Source of the DNA: Deltaproteobacteria bacterium
GTDB lineage: Bacteria; Myxococcota_C; UBA6777
NCBI GenBank assembly: GCA_002731275.1
Contig: PCBK01000089.1
Location: 1 to 42,499 of the forward strand
Length of the DNA: 42,499 nucleotides
Direction of reading: 5' to 3'
Below are positions 25,035 to 34,956 of this stretch, piece by piece; within the stretch, counting starts at the first letter, position 1, and each line of letters opens with the position of its first letter. The notes below the pieces were generated by a model, which had not been told where the DNA came from, made no database searches, and was given only the letters and a program-made list of their open reading frames with translations. The position numbers and the translations under genes were made by a program.

Positions 25035-27062
25035 CTACGCACCGAGCATCTGACGTGCGCGGTTGTAGTAAGTCAGACGAGACTGGTATCCGTTGGTCCC
25101 ACCATTGATCAGACGTGTGACACGCTCAAAGTCGCCTGCATCAGCCGCGGAGTTGATGTCACGGCTGTTCCAATACCACGCCGCAATACGCGAAGAGTTC
25201 TCATCGAGAGAAGCCAATTCAGGGTTATTCACAAAATCTACGCCCAACGCTTGGCTGGCTTGTGTGTAGTTGTAACGTCCTGTCACCTGGATCAAGCCAC
25301 GTCCTTTGAATCGACGACCATCACCGGGTTGTGTGTTCCCCAGGTCCGCACGACCTTCATATGCTGCACCAGAAGCGATCTCTTCGTTGTAGATAAATCC
25401 ACCACTCTCATGAGCGAGCTGCGCGAGGAACATCGCCTGACGTTGTGGTGTGTTGATGTTCGCCTCTTCCATGGCGCGGTTGATATGGGGTGCTAACTCT
25501 TCCGCTCTTGGTGCGGAGAGATTGGGCGAAAGATAACGAAGCTGTTCAGCAGTGATCCCCTGACCAGGTTGGGAAGGTCCAGTCGGAGCGACAGGCGCTG
25601 CCCCCTGTACAGGTTGGCTTGGCTGTGAGCTGTTACCTGGAAGAACAAGTGTTTGTCCGGGGTAGATGCGGTTTGGATTGCTGATGTTGTTAGCTTGTGC
25701 GAGCTCTTGCCAGGATGTCCCATGACGACGTGCGATAGAACTCAACGTATCACCGGGCTGCACTGTGTACTGTGCAGGAGGCGTTGGCTGGCTTGGCTGT
25801 GTTGGTGCCGCTGGCGCTGTTGGATTGGAAGGATTGGGATTCGCAGGTGCCGCTGGATTCGCAGGTGCCGCTGGGTTCGCTGGTGCGGTACCGTTTGGAT
25901 TGCGAACTGAGATCACAGCTGGTGTCCAGTTGACACCGTTCATGTAGTTTTTCAGATCATCATGGGAGATTTGACGTGGTCCTTGATCGAGTGGGTCATT
26001 GACCGTGAACTGCTGACTCTGTGGATCATACCCTGTGACAGTGATAAAGTGTCCATCATTGTATGATGACCAACCACCTCCACTTGCGCCGGGGTTTCCG
26101 TTCACGACGACGGGATTTCCGTCCATGATCGACTGCGCGATAGCGTCTGTATCTGCGGGGAGTCGAACAGCTTCTGCACCTGCCGCCTCTGCGCCTCGAA
26201 CGATCTCAGAGCCACTTGTCCACGTGCTGTGTTCTGCGTCATTTCGGGTCCCATCAGCATTCACACCATCACGAGAAGCTTCTGTGACCATCGCCTGACG
26301 TGTCGCCTGCAACGTCTGTACAGAAGAAGATTGATTGTCACCAGGGACAGCCATCCCAACAGAGTGGAGCGCCATCGCGAGAGATGTCGGACCACAGTCG
26401 GCGTTACTGCCGTTTGGATCACCGTCAAATTGGTTGATATGGACCTGATCAGGCGTCAACGAAACACCTGTCTGCGTTCCAGTCGGATCAACGGGATTGG
26501 CAGGTGTTGCAGGGTTCGCTGGCGTTGTAGGATTCGCTGGTGTTGTAGGATTCGCCGGTGTTGTGGGGCTTGATGGAGAGCTTTGCCCTGGGATCTGGAG
26601 GACTTGTCCTGGATAGATACGATTTGGATTGCTGATGTTATTGGCTTCGGCGAGCGCTTGCCACGTCGTCCCATGTTGTCGGGCGATCGCGCTCAAGGTA
26701 TCGCCGGCCCGGACGGTGTGGGTCTGATTTGCCTCTGCTGGCTGCTGCGCAAATCCCGGAAGACGGGAGGTCGCGAAGTTCAGATCTTGCTCTGCGACAC
26801 GTGCACCATGACCCGTGAGCGCCTTCGCTTTGTTGTCCTCTTCATAGGAGGTAAATGTGCTCTTTTGACCGACGCGCTCACGTATCTGCTGAGAGATCCG
26901 CTGAAACGTCTCCTTCGTCTTATTGAGCGCCTGGCCAGCAAGATCACGTAGACGATCAGGCAAGTTCGGTTGGCGGCGCTCTGGGGTTCTCTGCTCGACT
27001 GCGTCAATCGGCTTTTGGTGAATTGGTCGACGCGGTTCGGGACGGGGATCATTCACTCTCAT
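25035..27062 (-). CDS. LysM-C39-LysM-GH19 multidomain wall-active protein
   Basis: The ATG at 27062 has GAGGAG 6 nt upstream and is preferred to one 11 codons earlier, giving 675 residues. A basic/proline-rich N-terminus (1-100) has no signal peptide. Then come LysM 1 (about 110-155, [17 protein letters not shown]), a TTPANP-type linker, and a C39-like papain-fold domain (about 200-400, [12 protein letters not shown] with the Cys, [11 protein letters not shown] with the His). A PAN linker, LysM 2 (about 430-475) and a GH19 chitinase/lysozyme domain (about 505-675) follow. GH19 has the catalytic Glu in AHESGG and a second in AYEGR, then [10 protein letters not shown]. It would bind glycans and cut glycan and peptide. 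Export must use another route (contractile injection, lysis or toxin delivery); this is inferred. Confidence 0.92.
25837..25890 (-). repeat. Three 18-bp tandem units in the second PAN linker
   Basis: Three in-frame 18-bp units (ggattcgcaggtgccgct type, on the plus strand) encode a PAAPAN-type linker between the C39 and second LysM domains. The first two are identical and the third differs at a few positions. In-frame repetition makes linker length variable without a frameshift. Confidence 0.85.
26494..26565 (-). repeat. Four 18-bp tandem units in the first TPANP linker
   Basis: Four consecutive 18-bp units (26494, 26512, 26530, 26548) encode the TTPANP-type linker between LysM 1 and the C39 domain. 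The units differ at a few positions, mostly at third bases. Divergence within a constant period suggests old duplication with selection for proline-rich flexibility. It is a coding minisatellite, not a CRISPR array. Confidence 0.88.
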
Positions 27063-27416
27063 GAGCAACTCCTCATGCAAAAAAGCGGATTTCACGGATA
27101 CAAAGGGTCAAGATGTCTCGCCAGGCGATCCTCAAGCACCTTCCGGATACAAAAATAGCATACAACAAGTATCGAACATTCCCCCGAAAAGTTTCTCGCT
27201 CATTGCAAAAAAACGATGTTAACACAGTACACTATGCAAAACACATGAACTCCATTCACGGGTGAACAGACCAATGTACCGACATATATAGACCTGCTCT
27301 ACGAGCATTTTTCTGACATCCCCACCAACCATTCAACGAAGATTCACACTCCCTCCACGATACATTCACCTCAAAAAGACAATGATCTGTATCCACTTTT
27401 AAAAAAGGAGTTGGGC
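27063..27416. other. Divergent intergenic region
   Basis: This 354-nt stretch separates two divergent cysteine-peptidase-fold genes and must contain both promoters. No ORF here resembles a protein. An AT-rich patch at about 27205-27245 (runs of A and the TTAACACAGTACACTATG segment) is the likeliest promoter area. I cannot pick a -35/-10 pair with confidence. Confidence 0.4.
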
Positions 27417-29647: not shown

Positions 29648-30196
29648 TTAGGAAGGGATCACGTTGATTTCTGGGTTGATTTGGTGACGCAAAAGGCGCT
29701 CAATTGCAGAGAGTGTTCCTGTTGTCGCGCTGGGACAAGTCCCACAGGCACCTTGGTAACGGATAAACACGGAGTTTCCGTCAATCCCAAGGAGATCAAG
29801 ACCACCACCATCGTTCGCAAGCGCTGGCCTCACCATCTCGTCGAGAATCCCGTTAATTTTAGACTTCAACTCGTCCGTTTCGGGATCTTCGTTGTCTGTG
29901 GAGGTCAAGTTGCGAAGTGTCTCAAGCATCTCATCGTCGACGTTTAAGATGGCCTTCCCTACAGCTTTCACCACAGTCTCCCAATCTTGCCCATCGTAGA
30001 TGGAGACCGTCAGGAAGGAACCCAAGTAAAAAACGGACTCAACGCCTTCAATGTCGTAGATTTGCGCCGCAAGTGGATCGTCTTTTGCGGCGTCGACATT
30101 TTGATACGAACGAGGGACACCACCGCTCAAGTCTTCGCTCAAGTTAAATTTGAATGCGTTCGGATTGGGTGTCGGTTCCAGGCTCACGATGTTCAT
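29648..30196 (-). CDS. Nfu-type Fe-S cluster scaffold/carrier
   Basis: This 182-residue protein has an N-terminal Nfu_N-like domain (1-90). It opens with EPTPNPNAFKF and has VESVFYLGSFLTVSI. A linker follows, then the NifU C-terminal domain (about 110-182, LDEMVRPALANDGGGLDLLGI). That domain holds the CxxC pair C151-GT-C154 in GACGTCPS, which bridges a 4Fe-4S cluster between two monomers. Such proteins deliver clusters to apo-enzymes in cytosol, a house-keeping role. The ATG at 30196 begins exactly at the conserved MNIVSLEPTPNPN segment. Its 5' neighbour on the same strand is the metal transporter operon (247 nt away), probably with its own promoter in between. Confidence 0.94.
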   Translation of the reverse strand: MNIVSLEPTPNPNAFKFNLSEDLSGGVPRSYQNVDAAKDDPLAAQIYDIEGVESVFYLGSFLTVSIYDGQDWETVVKAVGKAILNVDDEMLETLRNLTSTDNEDPETDELKSKINGILDEMVRPALANDGGGLDLLGIDGNSVFIRYQGACGTCPSATTGTLSAIERLLRHQINPEINVIPS

Positions 30197-30443: not shown

Positions 30444-31778
30444 TTATTTCGAAGAGCGTTTGGAGGTCTGTTTGGGGATAGGTTGTCCGTGTGGGTCTTC
30501 TTCGGGATTTTCAAGTGAAGAGACGATATTATCGAGGATGTCAGGCCCCAAAAAGTGTTCCATATCGTCAGCTGATCGGTGAACGTGATCAGGTGGTAGG
30601 TTGAGATGTTGTTCCAAAAAGGATTCCCATAGACGGTGCGCTCGGACATGGGTGATCGCTTTTTCAAAACCAGCGTTTGTGAGCCTCATCCTCGACCCTT
30701 CCCAAAGGAGCATCCCATTGGCCATCAACTGTCGCGCTGCTTTTTTGATGTAAGGGCGACTCTCAGGGTGTTTGTCAAAGACATCTTGCTCATCGATCCA
30801 ATCAGGACCGTCCTCCTGAAGACGGTACAGTGCACCCAAGATGTGTTCACGAGCCAATCGACGGGCGAGAAGCAAGCGTCTCCAGGCCTTCGGTACCATC
30901 CCATAGCTTGGCGAGAAGAAGAAGACAATCGCAAACAGCGCACCAGCCATTACCGCCATACACCCGGCGATGGAGACCTTCCCTCCGAGTCCAAGCGCCA
31001 TCATATACCCAAGGAACGCTGCGAGCGCACCGAAAAGCGCGGAGAAGAAAAGCAGCACACCAAGTCTATCGGTCAGCAAGTAAGCTGTCGCGCCGGGCGC
31101 GATGAGCATCGCGACGACGATAATGGCACCAACAGATTCAAAGGCAGCGATCGTCGTAAGCGCGACGAAACCGAGTAACAGGTAATGCATCAGACGTGGT
31201 CGCAGTCCCATCGACTCAGCGAGCGCAGGATCAAATGAGGAGACTTTGAGCTCTTTGTAAAAGAAGGTCACAAACAAGACGTTTAAGACGAACACAAACG
31301 CCAGGATCAGGAAGGCGCGTGGTCCAAGGACGAAGTTCTTCCCAAGGGTGACGACGTCAAAGGGTGCCATCGCGATCTCACCGTACAATACGCAGTCGAT
31401 ATCGAGATCCACATTCCCTGCACGGCTGACCATAATGACACCGATGGAGAACAAGACCGTAAAGACAACACCGATGGACGCATCTTCGTAGATTCGCCCG
31501 GTCTTTTTAAGCGCGTCGACCAACATTGGGGTCAAGACACCCACAACACTCGCGCCGATCAATACAGGAAAAGACGCGACGCTCCCCGTCCATATCGAAG
31601 CGACAGCGATGCCGGGCAAGACGGAGTGACTGATCGCATCTCCCATCAAAGCGAGCTTTCTAAGGATCAAGAAGCTCCCAATCAAACCAGCCGATGAACA
31701 CGCTAAGACGCCAATCAAAATGATCCACCATTGATCTGTATGCAAACCGAGAAAGGTCGTAGCCAAAAATTGTGTCAT
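30444..31778 (-). CDS. Metal ABC permease fused to a DtxR/MntR-like domain (second permease)
   Basis: This 444-residue protein's start overlaps the previous permease stop by 4 bp (ATGA). Residues 15-295 are an ABC-3 (TroC/D, ZnuB-like) permease with eight to nine hydrophobic segments and motifs such as MGDAISHSVLPGIAVA and ESVGAIIVVAMLIAPGATA. From about 300 the chain becomes soluble and matches DtxR/MntR: a winged helix (HILGALYRL, SRPYIKKAARQL, SRMRLTNAGFEKA) and the dimer/metal region AHRLWESFL, then DDMEHFL. Near the end comes EDPHGQPIP, the DtxR signature. Counterparts of MntR ligands H77, E99 (here Asp), E102 and H103 are present, but those of the first helix are not. Domain role is metal feedback by inference. 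Confidence 0.93.
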   Translation of the reverse strand: MTQFLATTFLGLHTDQWWIILIGVLACSSAGLIGSFLILRKLALMGDAISHSVLPGIAVASIWTGSVASFPVLIGASVVGVLTPMLVDALKKTGRIYEDASIGVVFTVLFSIGVIMVSRAGNVDLDIDCVLYGEIAMAPFDVVTLGKNFVLGPRAFLILAFVFVLNVLFVTFFYKELKVSSFDPALAESMGLRPRLMHYLLLGFVALTTIAAFESVGAIIVVAMLIAPGATAYLLTDRLGVLLFFSALFGALAAFLGYMMALGLGGKVSIAGCMAVMAGALFAIVFFFSPSYGMVPKAWRRLLLARRLAREHILGALYRLQEDGPDWIDEQDVFDKHPESRPYIKKAARQLMANGMLLWEGSRMRLTNAGFEKAITHVRAHRLWESFLEQHLNLPPDHVHRSADDMEHFLGPDILDNIVSSLENPEEDPHGQPIPKQTSKRSSK

Positions 31779-33091
31779 GAAGAAAGACTCCCTTCTGGCG
31801 AAGCATCAGAGATTTCATCCTGGTCAGGCTCCGCTTCGAGTAACTCTTCGAGCTGCGCGATGATCTCAGGCGACAAAAAGTGCTCCATATCCTCAGCGTC
31901 ACGCTGTACATGGTCATCGGCGATCTCAGCCTGACGGATCAGGTAAAGCTCCCAGAGACGGTGTCCGCGTACGATCTTCTCGGCGCGCTCATGTCCTTTT
32001 TGGGTTAGCGCGTATCCATTCGCGGACTCGTCGAGAAAACCTTCACGACTCAGTGTACGACACCACCCCTTTAAGGCCCCTGCTGTAAGTTGAAAATGAC
32101 GTTGCACGCGTTCAAAAGAGACAGTACTGAGCGTATCCCCCTCTTCTTCAGCCTCTTTGTAGAAGGCTTTCAGGATATTCTCGATGAGGATCTTCCTCTT
32201 CATACGTCGCTGTCTCAACCACGTGGCGAGTAGACCACGTCCCGGCGCAAATGTGAGACTCAAAAGCAACATCGCCGAAGCCGTCAACACCATAATTGGT
32301 CCAGTCGGTGTCTTCGGTGCGATCGCGGAGAAGAACGCGCCAAACATCCCCGAAAGTGCACCGACACCTGCAGACAAGACCAGCATGACACCTAATCTAT
32401 TTGTCCATTGTCTAGCTGCGGCTGCCGGTATGATCAACAACGCAGCCATCAAGATGACCCCCACAGCCTGCAAACCGATCATCACGGCGATCACGATCAA
32501 AGACGTCAACAAGGCATCGAGACGCTTGACTGGAAACCCAAGACTTTCGGCAAAACCAGCGTCAAACGACAAGACCTTGAACTCTTTGAAAAACAGGCCC
32601 ACAATCAACAACAAGAAGCAAGCCATTCCGCCGATCAACATGATGTCTTCGTAGAGCAAAAAGGCAGCCTTTCCGAACAGAAAATTGTCCAAGCCGGCCT
32701 GATTCCCGGCACCACTCTGTTGGATCACGGTCAATAAGACAATCCCACCACCAAAAAAGACAGAGAGCACAAGGCCAATCGCTGTATCATTTTTGATGCG
32801 GCTGTGTCGGGTGATCTGCATGATCAAAAAGGATCCTATCAACCCACTGACCAACGCACCGAGCAACAAACCGACGGGATGTTTACTGTGTGTCAACAAG
32901 AAGAAGACACAGACACCCGGCAAGGCGGCATGAGCCATTGCATCTCCCAGCAAACTTTGACGCCTCAACAGCGCAAATGTGCCGAGCACACCGCTGGAGA
33001 TTCCGAGCAACATACACCCAAGCATCACGACACGCCTTGTGCTCGCGTGAGGACCGAAGTACTGGAGCAGCTCGCCCAGGATATCCATCAA
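31775..33091 (-). CDS. Metal ABC permease fused to a DtxR/MntR-like domain (first permease)
   Basis: This 438-residue protein overlaps both neighbours by 4 bp (33088-33091 and 31775-31778), so the four transporter genes are likely one transcript. Residues about 10-290 form an ABC-3 family permease with [20 protein letters not shown] and [21 protein letters not shown]. Residues about 292-438 resemble a DtxR/MntR repressor: a winged helix ([38 protein letters not shown]) and the metal region GHRLWELYL with AEDMEHFL. Ligand counterparts of MntR H77, E99, E102 and H103 are visible by eye; those from helix 1 are not. Its tail after DMEHFL is acidic and lacks the PIP motif of the other permease. 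This makes a hetero-dimer of two sensor tails likely. Confidence 0.93.
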
Positions 33092-33864
33092 GCCCTCTCC
33101 TTCGCGACAACATCAGCGGCCTGACTCAATATCGCCAGACGTCCGCCGTATGTTTTGCGCAAGTTGTCCTCATTGAACACCTCTTCAATGGGTCCGATGG
33201 CCACGAGGTGCATGTTGATCATCAACGCCCAGTCAAAATACTCTCGGACGGTCTGCAGGTCGTGATGCACGACGATAACGGTCTTGTTCTGGGAGCGAAG
33301 CTCAGACAGCAATTGAACGATGGCCTTTTCCGTCACGGCGTCCACCCCGACAAAGGGCTCATCCATCAAGTACAGATCAGCCTCTTGTGCAAGCGCACGA
33401 GCCAAAAATACCCGCTGCTGCTGGCCTCCAGAGAGTTGACTGATCTGTCGATTTGCGAAGGACTCCATCCCAACCTTCTCAAGGCATCGACGAGCAACAT
33501 CCATGTCCTTTCGACCTGGTCGACGAAACCACCCCAGCTTCCCATATCGCCCCATGACCACGACGTCCAGAACTGTCGTAGGAAAGTCCCAATCGACAGA
33601 TTCACGCTGAGGGACGTACCCAACACGATGTCGATTTTGCTGATAGCTCCCACCGTACAACTTGATCCAACCACTTGAGAGGGGGAGCAAGCCAAGAATA
33701 GACTTGAGCAAGGTCGTCTTCCCGGCACCGTTGGGACCGATGATCGCGACCAGCTTCCCATCGGGCACCTCAAAGTCGATATCCCAAAGGACAGGACGAG
33801 TGTGGTAAGCCACAGTCAAATCGTGGACTTCTACGGGGGCTTTGTTGTTCTCTTTATCAACCAT
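33088..33864 (-). CDS. Metal ABC transporter ATPase (TroB/ZnuC-like)
   Basis: This 258-residue ATPase powers the adjoining permeases. It has Walker [10 protein letters not shown] (about 41-49), the Q-loop in [14 protein letters not shown], the ABC signature LSGGQQQR, Walker [10 protein letters not shown] and the switch His in VIVVHHDLQ. The [20 protein letters not shown] segment is typical of metal-importing ABC ATPases (Mn, Zn or Fe). The frame begins at 33897, but the ATG at 33864 follows the end of the binding-protein gene by 7 nt and starts near the conserved [10 protein letters not shown], so it is preferred. Its own ribosome site is weak (GTGAG), which suggests coupled translation. It overlaps the first permease by 4 bp. 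Confidence 0.95.
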
Positions 33865-33871
33865 TACATAC

Positions 33872-34816
33872 TCACTTTTTGTCTGATGCCAGCGCACGCT
33901 TCAAGGTCTTCACGTTGTGTCGGACCATCCCCAGATAAGTCCCCTCAACAGTACCTTCTGCTCCCATCGCGTCGGAGAAAAGAGAACCACCGATTTTGAC
34001 CACGTGCCCCCTGGCTGCGCAGGCTTGCATCACAGCCTTGAGTGATTTCTCCGACACTGACGACTCCACAAAGATCGCTTTGAGTTTGCTCTTCATGATC
34101 AAATCCACAACACGCTCAACATCTTTGACGCCAGCCTCCGCGACTGTACTGATCCCCTGAATCCCCACAACCTTGACCCCATAGGCCTGACCAAAGTAAC
34201 CAAACGCGTCGTGTGACGTCACCAAGATCCGTTGTGATGTCGGGATGGAAGAGACCTGTGTCTTCACCCACTTGTGCAGCGCGATGAGCTTCTCTTCATA
34301 TGCCTTAGCTCGCTTCCTGTATTCCTTCGCGTGGGCCTTATCAGCCTTCGCAAAAGCCTCTCCAATCCGACGAACGACAAATTGCCATAGAGACACGTCA
34401 AACCACACATGAGGATCATGATACCCCTGAAAAGAAGGAGGTTTTCGCAAACTCTTTTTGGGAATATTGTCCGTACACGCGACGACGTGGCGTCGGCGTG
34501 CCATCTTCTTTAACAACCCTTGCATCTTCCCTTCGAGGTGGAGGCCATTGTAGAGAATCAGATCCGCTGTCGCGAGCCTTCTCGTATCGGCGGCGGTTGC
34601 CTTGTACAAATGGGGATCAACACCAGGCCCCATCAGTCCATCAACTCGGACATGCGGACCTCCAATCACCTTCGCAGCATCTGCCAACATCCCTGTCGTC
34701 GCCACAACGTACATTTTTCCGTCCTTTTTGGACGATTGACGCGATTGTGGGCAACCACAGAGCATCCCCATCATCAACAAACACCCTAACAAAAACCAAC
34801 TATTCTTCGAGCTCAT
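33872..34816 (-). CDS. Metal-binding lipoprotein of the TroA/ZnuA cluster
   Basis: This is a 314-residue periplasmic binding protein. The signal peptide ends in the lipobox LCGC with Cys22. The cluster A-I signature is complete: [12 protein letters not shown] (His, about 69), DPHVWFDVS (second His), a [15 protein letters not shown] segment (third His) and [10 protein letters not shown] with the Asp near 280. The His-His-His-Asp set is that of TroA and ZnuA; Mn-specific PsaA has Glu at the third position. There is no long His-rich loop. The metal could be Zn or Mn. GGAG stands 8 nt before the ATG at 34816. It opens the transporter operon; a near-palindrome lies 53-66 bp upstream. Confidence 0.95.
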
Positions 34817-34868
34817 CGAGCTTACTCCATTTATCTTTCAAAAGTTCATGACATACGTCAAATATTTT

Positions 34869-34882
34869 TTAGACATGGCTAA
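34869..34882 (-). promoter_or_regulatory. Candidate metal-repressor operator (TTAGaCATGgCTAA)
   Basis: This 14-bp sequence matches its own reverse complement at 12 of 14 positions, with CATG at the centre and TTAG/CTAA arms. It stands 53-66 bp before the binding-protein ATG, in an AT-rich strip. TTAG/CTAA arms are reminiscent of DtxR-family sites, though the spacing is not the DtxR 19-bp consensus. A DtxR-type regulator is plausible, as such domains are fused to the permeases. Confidence 0.45.
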
Positions 34883-34956
34883 CTTTAAAAGAAGATAGCT
34901 TTACATTTCTCAATGTCAACTAAAAAATGGCTTGGGAAGAAAAAGCGTGGAGGAGA

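Follow-up and report, generated by a model that had tools for sequence, protein, structure and literature searches.

The locus: a metal importer operon with two extended permeases

The window, by which we mean the whole stretch of 42,499 nucleotides that was analyzed, carries on its minus strand an operon composed of a substrate-binding protein (SBP), an ABC ATPase and two permeases, P2 and P1. The features used throughout the text are the following, in the order of transcription.

34892 to 34919, minus strand: promoter-like TTGACA-16-TATCTT of the operon, called purely by consensus match (10 of 12 positions)
34868 to 34883, minus strand: operator-like box GTTAGCCATGTCTAAA, a variant of TTTAGCCNNGGCTAAA (match with two mismatches)
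33872 to 34816, minus strand: substrate-binding protein of cluster A-I (ZnuA-TroA type), 314 aa (Pfam ZnuA, 5.3e-80)
33088 to 33897, minus strand: ABC ATPase of the Mn/Fe/Zn importer type, up to 269 aa (Pfam ABC_tran, 1.2e-30)
31775 to 33091, minus strand: P2, the first (TroC-like) permease with a DtxR/MntR-like tail, 438 aa (Pfam, AF2)
32180 to 32236, minus strand: P2 residues 286-304, cytoplasmic helix from the membrane exit at Gly286 to Glu304 of the putative sensor (spacing, model)
31823 to 32182, minus strand: P2 residues 304-423, winged-helix and metal-binding regions (PF02742, model)
30444 to 31778, minus strand: P1, the second (TroD-like) permease with a DtxR/MntR-like tail, 444 aa (Pfam, AF2, Foldseek)
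30846 to 30902, minus strand: P1 residues 293-311, cytoplasmic helix from the membrane exit at Gly293 to Glu311 of the putative sensor (spacing, model)
30471 to 30848, minus strand: P1 residues 311-436, winged helix with a degenerate recognition helix, and metal domain (PF02742, IdeR alignment)

The two permease genes, whose coordinates had been given correctly in the first-pass annotation, overlap each other (31775-33091 and 30444-31778). P2 starts at a TTG; the next ATG, which returns a protein of 437 aa, overlaps the stop of the ATPase gene as TGATG. Both proteins have an ABC-3 domain over the curated Pfam cut-offs (1.8e-44 in P1 and 3.7e-65 in P2), a PsaC-like fold and an operon shared with an SBP and an ATPase, as expected of metal permeases of the TroC/TroD/ZnuB/PsaC type. 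When compared to NCBIfam, the SBP (33872-34816) finds AztC, MntC and EfaA as relatives, none over the cut-off, and the top matches of the ATPase are manganese/iron ABC ATPases, all below the cut-off.

Two further reading frames were recorded in the surroundings. A NifU-like ORF with the CxxC motif GACGTCPS lies at 29648-30196 of the window, on the same strand and 248 bases downstream of the operon. One protein, at 25035-27095, represents an unusual mix as judged by eye: it has two LysM-like stretches, repeats rich in proline and apparent peptidase-like and chitinase-like domains.

Both permeases end in a DtxR/MntR-like tail

The profile PF02742 (Fe_dep_repr_C, Pfam) matches the ends of both permeases over its curated cut-off, at residues 367-436 of P1 (8.4e-23) and at residues 363-419 of P2 (2.7e-16). 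We aligned the tails to the DtxR family, as had been proposed earlier. The P1 tail aligns to IdeR (1b1b) with an E-value of 1.6e-12 over IdeR residues 9-134, thus spanning the winged helix and the metal domain. The P2 tail matches MtsR, SloR and MntR (E-value 5e-9 and weaker), less strongly than P1 matches IdeR. AF2 models, built from alignments of 42 (P1) and 41 (P2) natural relatives, were obtained with a pLDDT of 92.6 and a pTM of 0.86 for P1, and of 89.1 and 0.82 for P2; the metal region of P2 has lower confidence, with a pLDDT of about 60-78 per block. A winged-helix fold is present in both tails. Foldseek associates the permease domains of both proteins with PsaC (7kyp), and the tails with the MntR DR2539 (8pw0), IdeR, DtxR or MntR. 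The first-pass description of two permeases that each continue into a winged helix and a metal region of the DtxR/MntR family therefore agrees with the family profile, with the sequence alignments and with the predicted structures. This result confirms that the fusion on both permeases is real and well beyond chance.

The metal-ligand region HRLWE..DMEHFL was found in both proteins, and HGQPIP was seen in P1 alone, again as first described. In IdeR numbering, the ligand set is composed of H79, E83, H98, position 102, E105 and H106. All six are present in P1, with Asp at position 102, and its metal domain comprises H312, H381, E385, H400, D404, E407, H408 and the motif DPHGQPIP. In P2 (N305, H377, E381, Q396, E400, E403 and H404) five of the six are present, because Gln396 occupies the position of H98, and DPHGxPIP is lost. 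The P2 tail is thus partly degraded, which makes the two tails unequal.

The metal site is kept and the DNA-reading surface is lost

Two groups of PF02742 proteins were compared in IdeR numbering, namely 102 fused tails and 23 other proteins of the same loci; all counts of this comparison refer to the matches listed. Since the relatives were found through two motifs of the metal region, the conservation of the ligands is partly selected. No such selection applies to the missing recognition helix or to the stalk spacing described below. Ligands 79, 83, 98, 102, 105 and 106 are kept in both the fused and the standalone set. At least five of the six are found in 99 of the 102 fused tails, and all six in 89 (position 98 being His or Asp).

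IdeR contacts DNA through Ser37, Pro39, Thr40 and Gln43, together with nearby backbone contacts (PMC8464063). A canonical recognition helix (S/T at position 40 with S/T/N at position 42) is retained by only 3 of the 102 fused tails, as compared to 20 of the 23 standalone proteins. Similarly, PF01325, the Pfam DNA-binding domain of DtxR, has no match in the 83 rows scanned (76 distinct fused proteins), and P1 and P2 are also without it, whereas PF02742 matches 82 of the same 83 rows. As a control, a standalone DtxR of the source genome matches PF01325 (1.3e-19) as well as PF02742. Neither of the features that mark a DtxR-family repressor, a PF01325 match or a canonical recognition helix, is found in the tails of P1 and P2. 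The same trend is detectable within one family of genomes: the window tails share 10-20% identity with their sister orthologues in the recognition helix and 72-78% in the metal region, as compared to 90-100% and 72-94%, respectively, among the standalone proteins. The tails therefore share with standalone MntR, IdeR and DtxR the winged helix, the metal-binding/dimerization domain and the ligand positions, but they differ in being membrane-bound and in lacking the recognition-helix consensus and the PF01325 match.

When both permeases of a system are fused, the two tails behave differently among the matches listed. The first tail drifts, with Asp at the position of H98 in 78% and DPHGxPIP mostly lost, while the second retains all ligands and DPHGxPIP. 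The window fits this pattern, since P2 has Gln396 and no DPHG.

A stalk of fixed length connects permease and tail

In the AF2 models a single continuous helix joins the last part of the permease to the tail (residues 294-322 of P1, with high confidence, and 287-316 of P2). The glycine at the membrane exit and the equivalent of IdeR Glu9 are exactly 18 residues apart in every one of the 102 fused proteins among the matches listed, with no insertions or deletions, and the same spacing is found in the 35 of 35 Chlamydiota fusions examined. In contrast, the winged-helix stretch between E9 and H79 measures 61 to 105 residues in the tails, versus 70-73 in the standalone relatives (among the matches listed). 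The 17 linker residues of the stalk are positively charged, with a mean of +4.6.

Such an extension has a precedent in tail-less importers. The window permeases share their fold with S. pneumoniae PsaBC and B. anthracis MntBC (Foldseek TM-score of 0.88 to 7kyp), as well as a cytoplasmic extension of the last helix, although PsaBC and MntBC have no tails and are built from two copies of a single permease. In B. anthracis MntBC a cytoplasmic extension of about 21 charged residues prolongs the last permease helix, and its removal from MntC abolishes Mn import (PMC8487065). The DtxR-like domain thus sits on a permease element that is important for transport, and the invariant spacing makes its coupling to the permease look rigid. 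We infer that the stalk passes movement between sensor and permease; a stalk of constant length would also fit a role that is purely structural.

The fusion is old and spans several phyla

A scan of 84,980 species returned at least 575 relatives, and we classified the best 80 loci, to which the locus counts in this section refer. The fusion is found in Planctomycetota, Bacteroidota, Verrucomicrobiota, Chlamydiota and others, often on both permeases. Relatives across several phyla rule out a system unique to the source genome, and no relatives of P1 were found among viral contigs. We counted 20 complete pairs with fusions on both permeases, mostly from Planctomycetota and including two loci from Verrucomicrobiota; four further loci with both permeases fused have problems at ORF boundaries. 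The first permease alone is fused in Bacteroidota, Chlamydiota, Sumerlaeota, Acidobacteriota and most Verrucomicrobiota. PF02742 matches in 104 out of 116 Chlamydiota genomes, nearly always once and in a frame with the length of a fused permease.

The permease tree is composed of two deep clades, corresponding to first and second permeases, and P2 groups with Chlamydia YtgC in the first-permease clade with 100% SH-aLRT support. The tree of the tails splits in the same way, with the standalone proteins forming one clade. As judged from these trees, the fusion is old and the tails stayed with their own permeases. A recent copy of the P2 tail as the origin of the second tail is unsupported, because the latter groups with the second-permease tails of Planctomycetota and not with P2. 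Second tails have probably been lost in several lineages: two close second permeases (L049:2333-3445 and L067:5387-6463) have an apparent winged-helix remnant and no metal domain, as seen by eye, and look like intermediate stages of this loss.

Other arrangements were also observed. In Saprospiraceae and relatives (L041, L044, L057, L065, L177 and similar loci), fused permeases of about 490-500 aa are seemingly the sole permease of the locus; a lone fused permease would give one transporter two identical tails. A FeoA domain was also matched in 4 of the 42 proteins of one alignment. In a Planctomycetota genome (L176:3-2123), an ABC-type ATPase, rather than a permease, seems to run into a DtxR-like tail, which has a cysteine at the primary-site position (SACEMEH).

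A separate DtxR and an operator-like box

Treponema TroABCDR belongs to the same class of SBP-ATPase-permease-permease operons and likewise has a DtxR-family component. TroR, however, is a separate, DNA-binding protein, whereas the DtxR-like parts of the window are fused to both permeases and are without the recognition-helix motif. The first-pass annotation had stated that a separate repressor is lacking, which is correct for the transporter operon, where we found no DtxR ORF and hence no troR as in TroABCDR, but not for the source genome. A standalone DtxR of 226 aa (L001) is encoded on contig C35; its recognition helix, VAPASVTKMLKRL, is canonical and its C-terminal domain is of the FeoA type.

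The palindrome TTTAGCCNNGGCTAAA occurs exactly before the gene of this standalone DtxR and in the promoter of the transporter operon of a sister genus, and these are the only exact matches in five genomes. The site noted earlier at 34869-34882 of the window does exist, with one match to TTAGN6CTAA in the window against 0.11 expected. Sites with up to two mismatches to TTTAGCCNNGGCTAAA are not enriched in the genome (approximately 9 per 10.75 Mb, versus 22 for a control pattern), so that their number is uninformative for defining a regulon and only exact matches are informative. The gene of a TonB-dependent receptor with a His-rich N-terminus (L164:3-1430, box at 1501, contig C70) is preceded, at a distance of about 70 bases, by a site with one mismatch. 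Judging from this box, the standalone DtxR probably also targets the receptor, which is a candidate outer-membrane partner of the importer.

The view that the tails replace a missing TroR is contradicted by the canonical DtxR elsewhere in the genome and by the operator-like box common to both promoters. Moreover, in 10 Bacteroidota loci (among the best 80 of at least 575 relatives) a standalone DtxR lies directly upstream of the SBP gene in operons with a fused permease. A dedicated repressor thus exists alongside the fused tail, which would be difficult to account for if the latter were merely the repressor. Transcription of the operon in the window is probably controlled by the separate DtxR at the putative box 34868-34883.

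A probable parallel at a second metal importer

On contig C8 of the source genome (L002:1198-2286) we found a membrane-anchored DtxR-like protein with one or more FeoA domains. Where the neighbor could be read, in two sister genera (L013 and L015) and in Bacteroidota (L171:831-1853), this protein adjoins FeoB; a further membrane-anchored DtxR-FeoA protein comes from Bacteroidota (L170:1315-2337). These proteins keep PF02742, have no PF01325 match over the cut-off and are without the canonical recognition helix. This looks like the same conversion of a repressor into a sensor in a second metal importer. The resemblance supports the idea that tethered DtxR domains act on transport.

What the tails may do

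The first-pass annotation had left a choice between metal-gated transport, membrane-tethered gene regulation or both. The loss of the DNA-reading helix, together with the maintenance of the ligands and of the stalk length, favors metal-gated transport over gene regulation, and the parallel splits of the permease and tail trees point in the same direction. We therefore regard as somewhat more probable than not a self-limiting importer of Mn2+ (or Mn2+/Fe2+), in which the tails would act as sensors through the stalk and the genes would be left to the separate DtxR. Each permease would end in a cytosolic sensor of the DtxR/MntR type, connected with the last membrane helix through a straight helix of fixed length. 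Metal that reaches the cytosol would bind the tails and shift the packing between winged helix and metal domain, and perhaps also between the two tails. This movement would be passed through the stalk to permease and ATPase and would slow down further import (trans-inhibition), while control of the operon would be left to the ordinary DtxR encoded elsewhere.

The steps of this model differ in their support. Metal binding by the tails is suggested by the ligands, gating of transport by the anatomy of the fusion, and inhibition as the sign of gating by the logic of feedback. Manganese is a guess. It relies on the ATPase, which is nearest to Mn/Fe models although below the cut-off; on the nearest structure of the tails, which is the Mn repressor DR2539; and on position 102, which is Asp/Glu as in MntR. 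This position is Asp/Glu in MntR and Cys in DtxR. Among the points against this model, the P2 tail has lost one ligand and DPHGxPIP, and the box in the window matches TTTAGCCNNGGCTAAA only with two mismatches.

The proposed mode is known from MetNI and ModBC, where transport is stalled once an accessory C-terminal domain of the ATPase detects the substrate that has been imported (PMC10710835). In those importers the sensors are on the ATPase and have unrelated folds, whereas the sensor proposed here belongs to the permease and derives from a family of transcription factors.

Among the closest known systems is Chlamydia YtgCR (CT069, with YtgA, YtgB and YtgD), which likewise joins a TroC-type permease and a DtxR-like domain within a four-gene ABC importer operon. 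The first-pass annotation had overlooked this studied precedent. This order, permease then DtxR-like domain in one ORF, is found in the window, and ligands and 18-residue spacing are identical in the two. YtgR is reported to be cleaved from YtgC and to bind operator DNA with Fe2+, or with Zn2+ in another study (PMC5599777, PMC7755916). The tails of the window may, by analogy, be freed by a protease and form a metal-bound dimer that represses the operon and other genes. YtgCR is, in the literature searched, the sole member of the family studied experimentally, P2 shares its permease clade, and a review reports orthologous fusions in 11 phyla and allows that the mechanism may be general (PMC5599777, PMC7755916). 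The C. trachomatis tail, whose recognition helix resembles that of DtxR no more than those of the window tails do, is nevertheless reported to bind DNA, and the loss of the consensus is thus by itself compatible with DNA binding. Still, we consider a cleaved repressor unlikely. The recognition helix is unconserved among close relatives (10-20% identity), an invariant helix of 18 residues takes the place of a flexible linker, and two unlike tails would mean two unlike repressors. In Chlamydia the first permease alone is fused and YtgR is usually the sole DtxR of the genome. The window instead carries two fused permeases, and its genome encodes a canonical DtxR elsewhere, whose promoter shares its box with the operon; Bacteroidota even keep a standalone DtxR and a fused permease in one operon.

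The remaining alternatives are less probable. The tails could act as metal acceptor, buffer or chaperone, catching the metal that leaves the channel and handing it on while the pump remains uncontrolled. The conserved ligands and the position of the tails, which from the topology would be at the cytosolic exit side, agree with this role, but it requires neither an invariant stalk nor a winged-helix fold, and DtxR sites work as sensors; we deem it distinctly unlikely. More doubtful still is a structural or assembly domain that pairs the permeases or docks the ATPases, with the ligands holding a structural metal. Two tails do co-occur with two permeases in Planctomycetota and in the window, and the trees match, but among the best 80 of at least 575 relatives many have one tail or a lone fused permease, and the metal domain is missing from the close second permeases L049 and L067. 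Least probable of all, and very much so, is regulation by a pair of uncleaved tails that bind the operator from the membrane: one-component membrane regulators exist and the site at 34869-34882 is real, but the DNA-reading surface is lost, the stalk is short, rigid and beneath the ATPases, and the shared box, present also at the promoter of the standalone DtxR, fits that protein.

Implications for metal import

The fusion of permease and DtxR domain is in itself already known, from YtgCR and, as reported in a review, from 11 phyla. In the literature searched, mostly without subscription papers, we found no description of the dual-permease fusion, of the invariant stalk or of the family-wide loss of the DNA surface, and no transport, metal-binding or structural experiments on non-chlamydial fused members. 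We see an even chance that these proteins form an importer family crossing phyla, whose DtxR domains are now rigidly coupled gates of the permease, with two unequal sensors when both permeases are fused; the published interpretation of such fusions as latent transcription factors, taken from Chlamydia YtgCR, would then be an exception or need revisiting, and the DtxR-FeoA proteins would be a parallel case.

Protein-level feedback in transition-metal importers is poorly known in comparison to gene control. Metal-gated transport is a specific and testable claim against the accepted model of Chlamydia YtgCR as a cleaved repressor. If the tails do gate, an allosteric sensor would lie inside a Mn/Fe ABC permease that is widespread in Planctomycetota, Bacteroidota, Verrucomicrobiota and Chlamydiota. 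Our data suggest that this importer senses intracellular metal and throttles itself.
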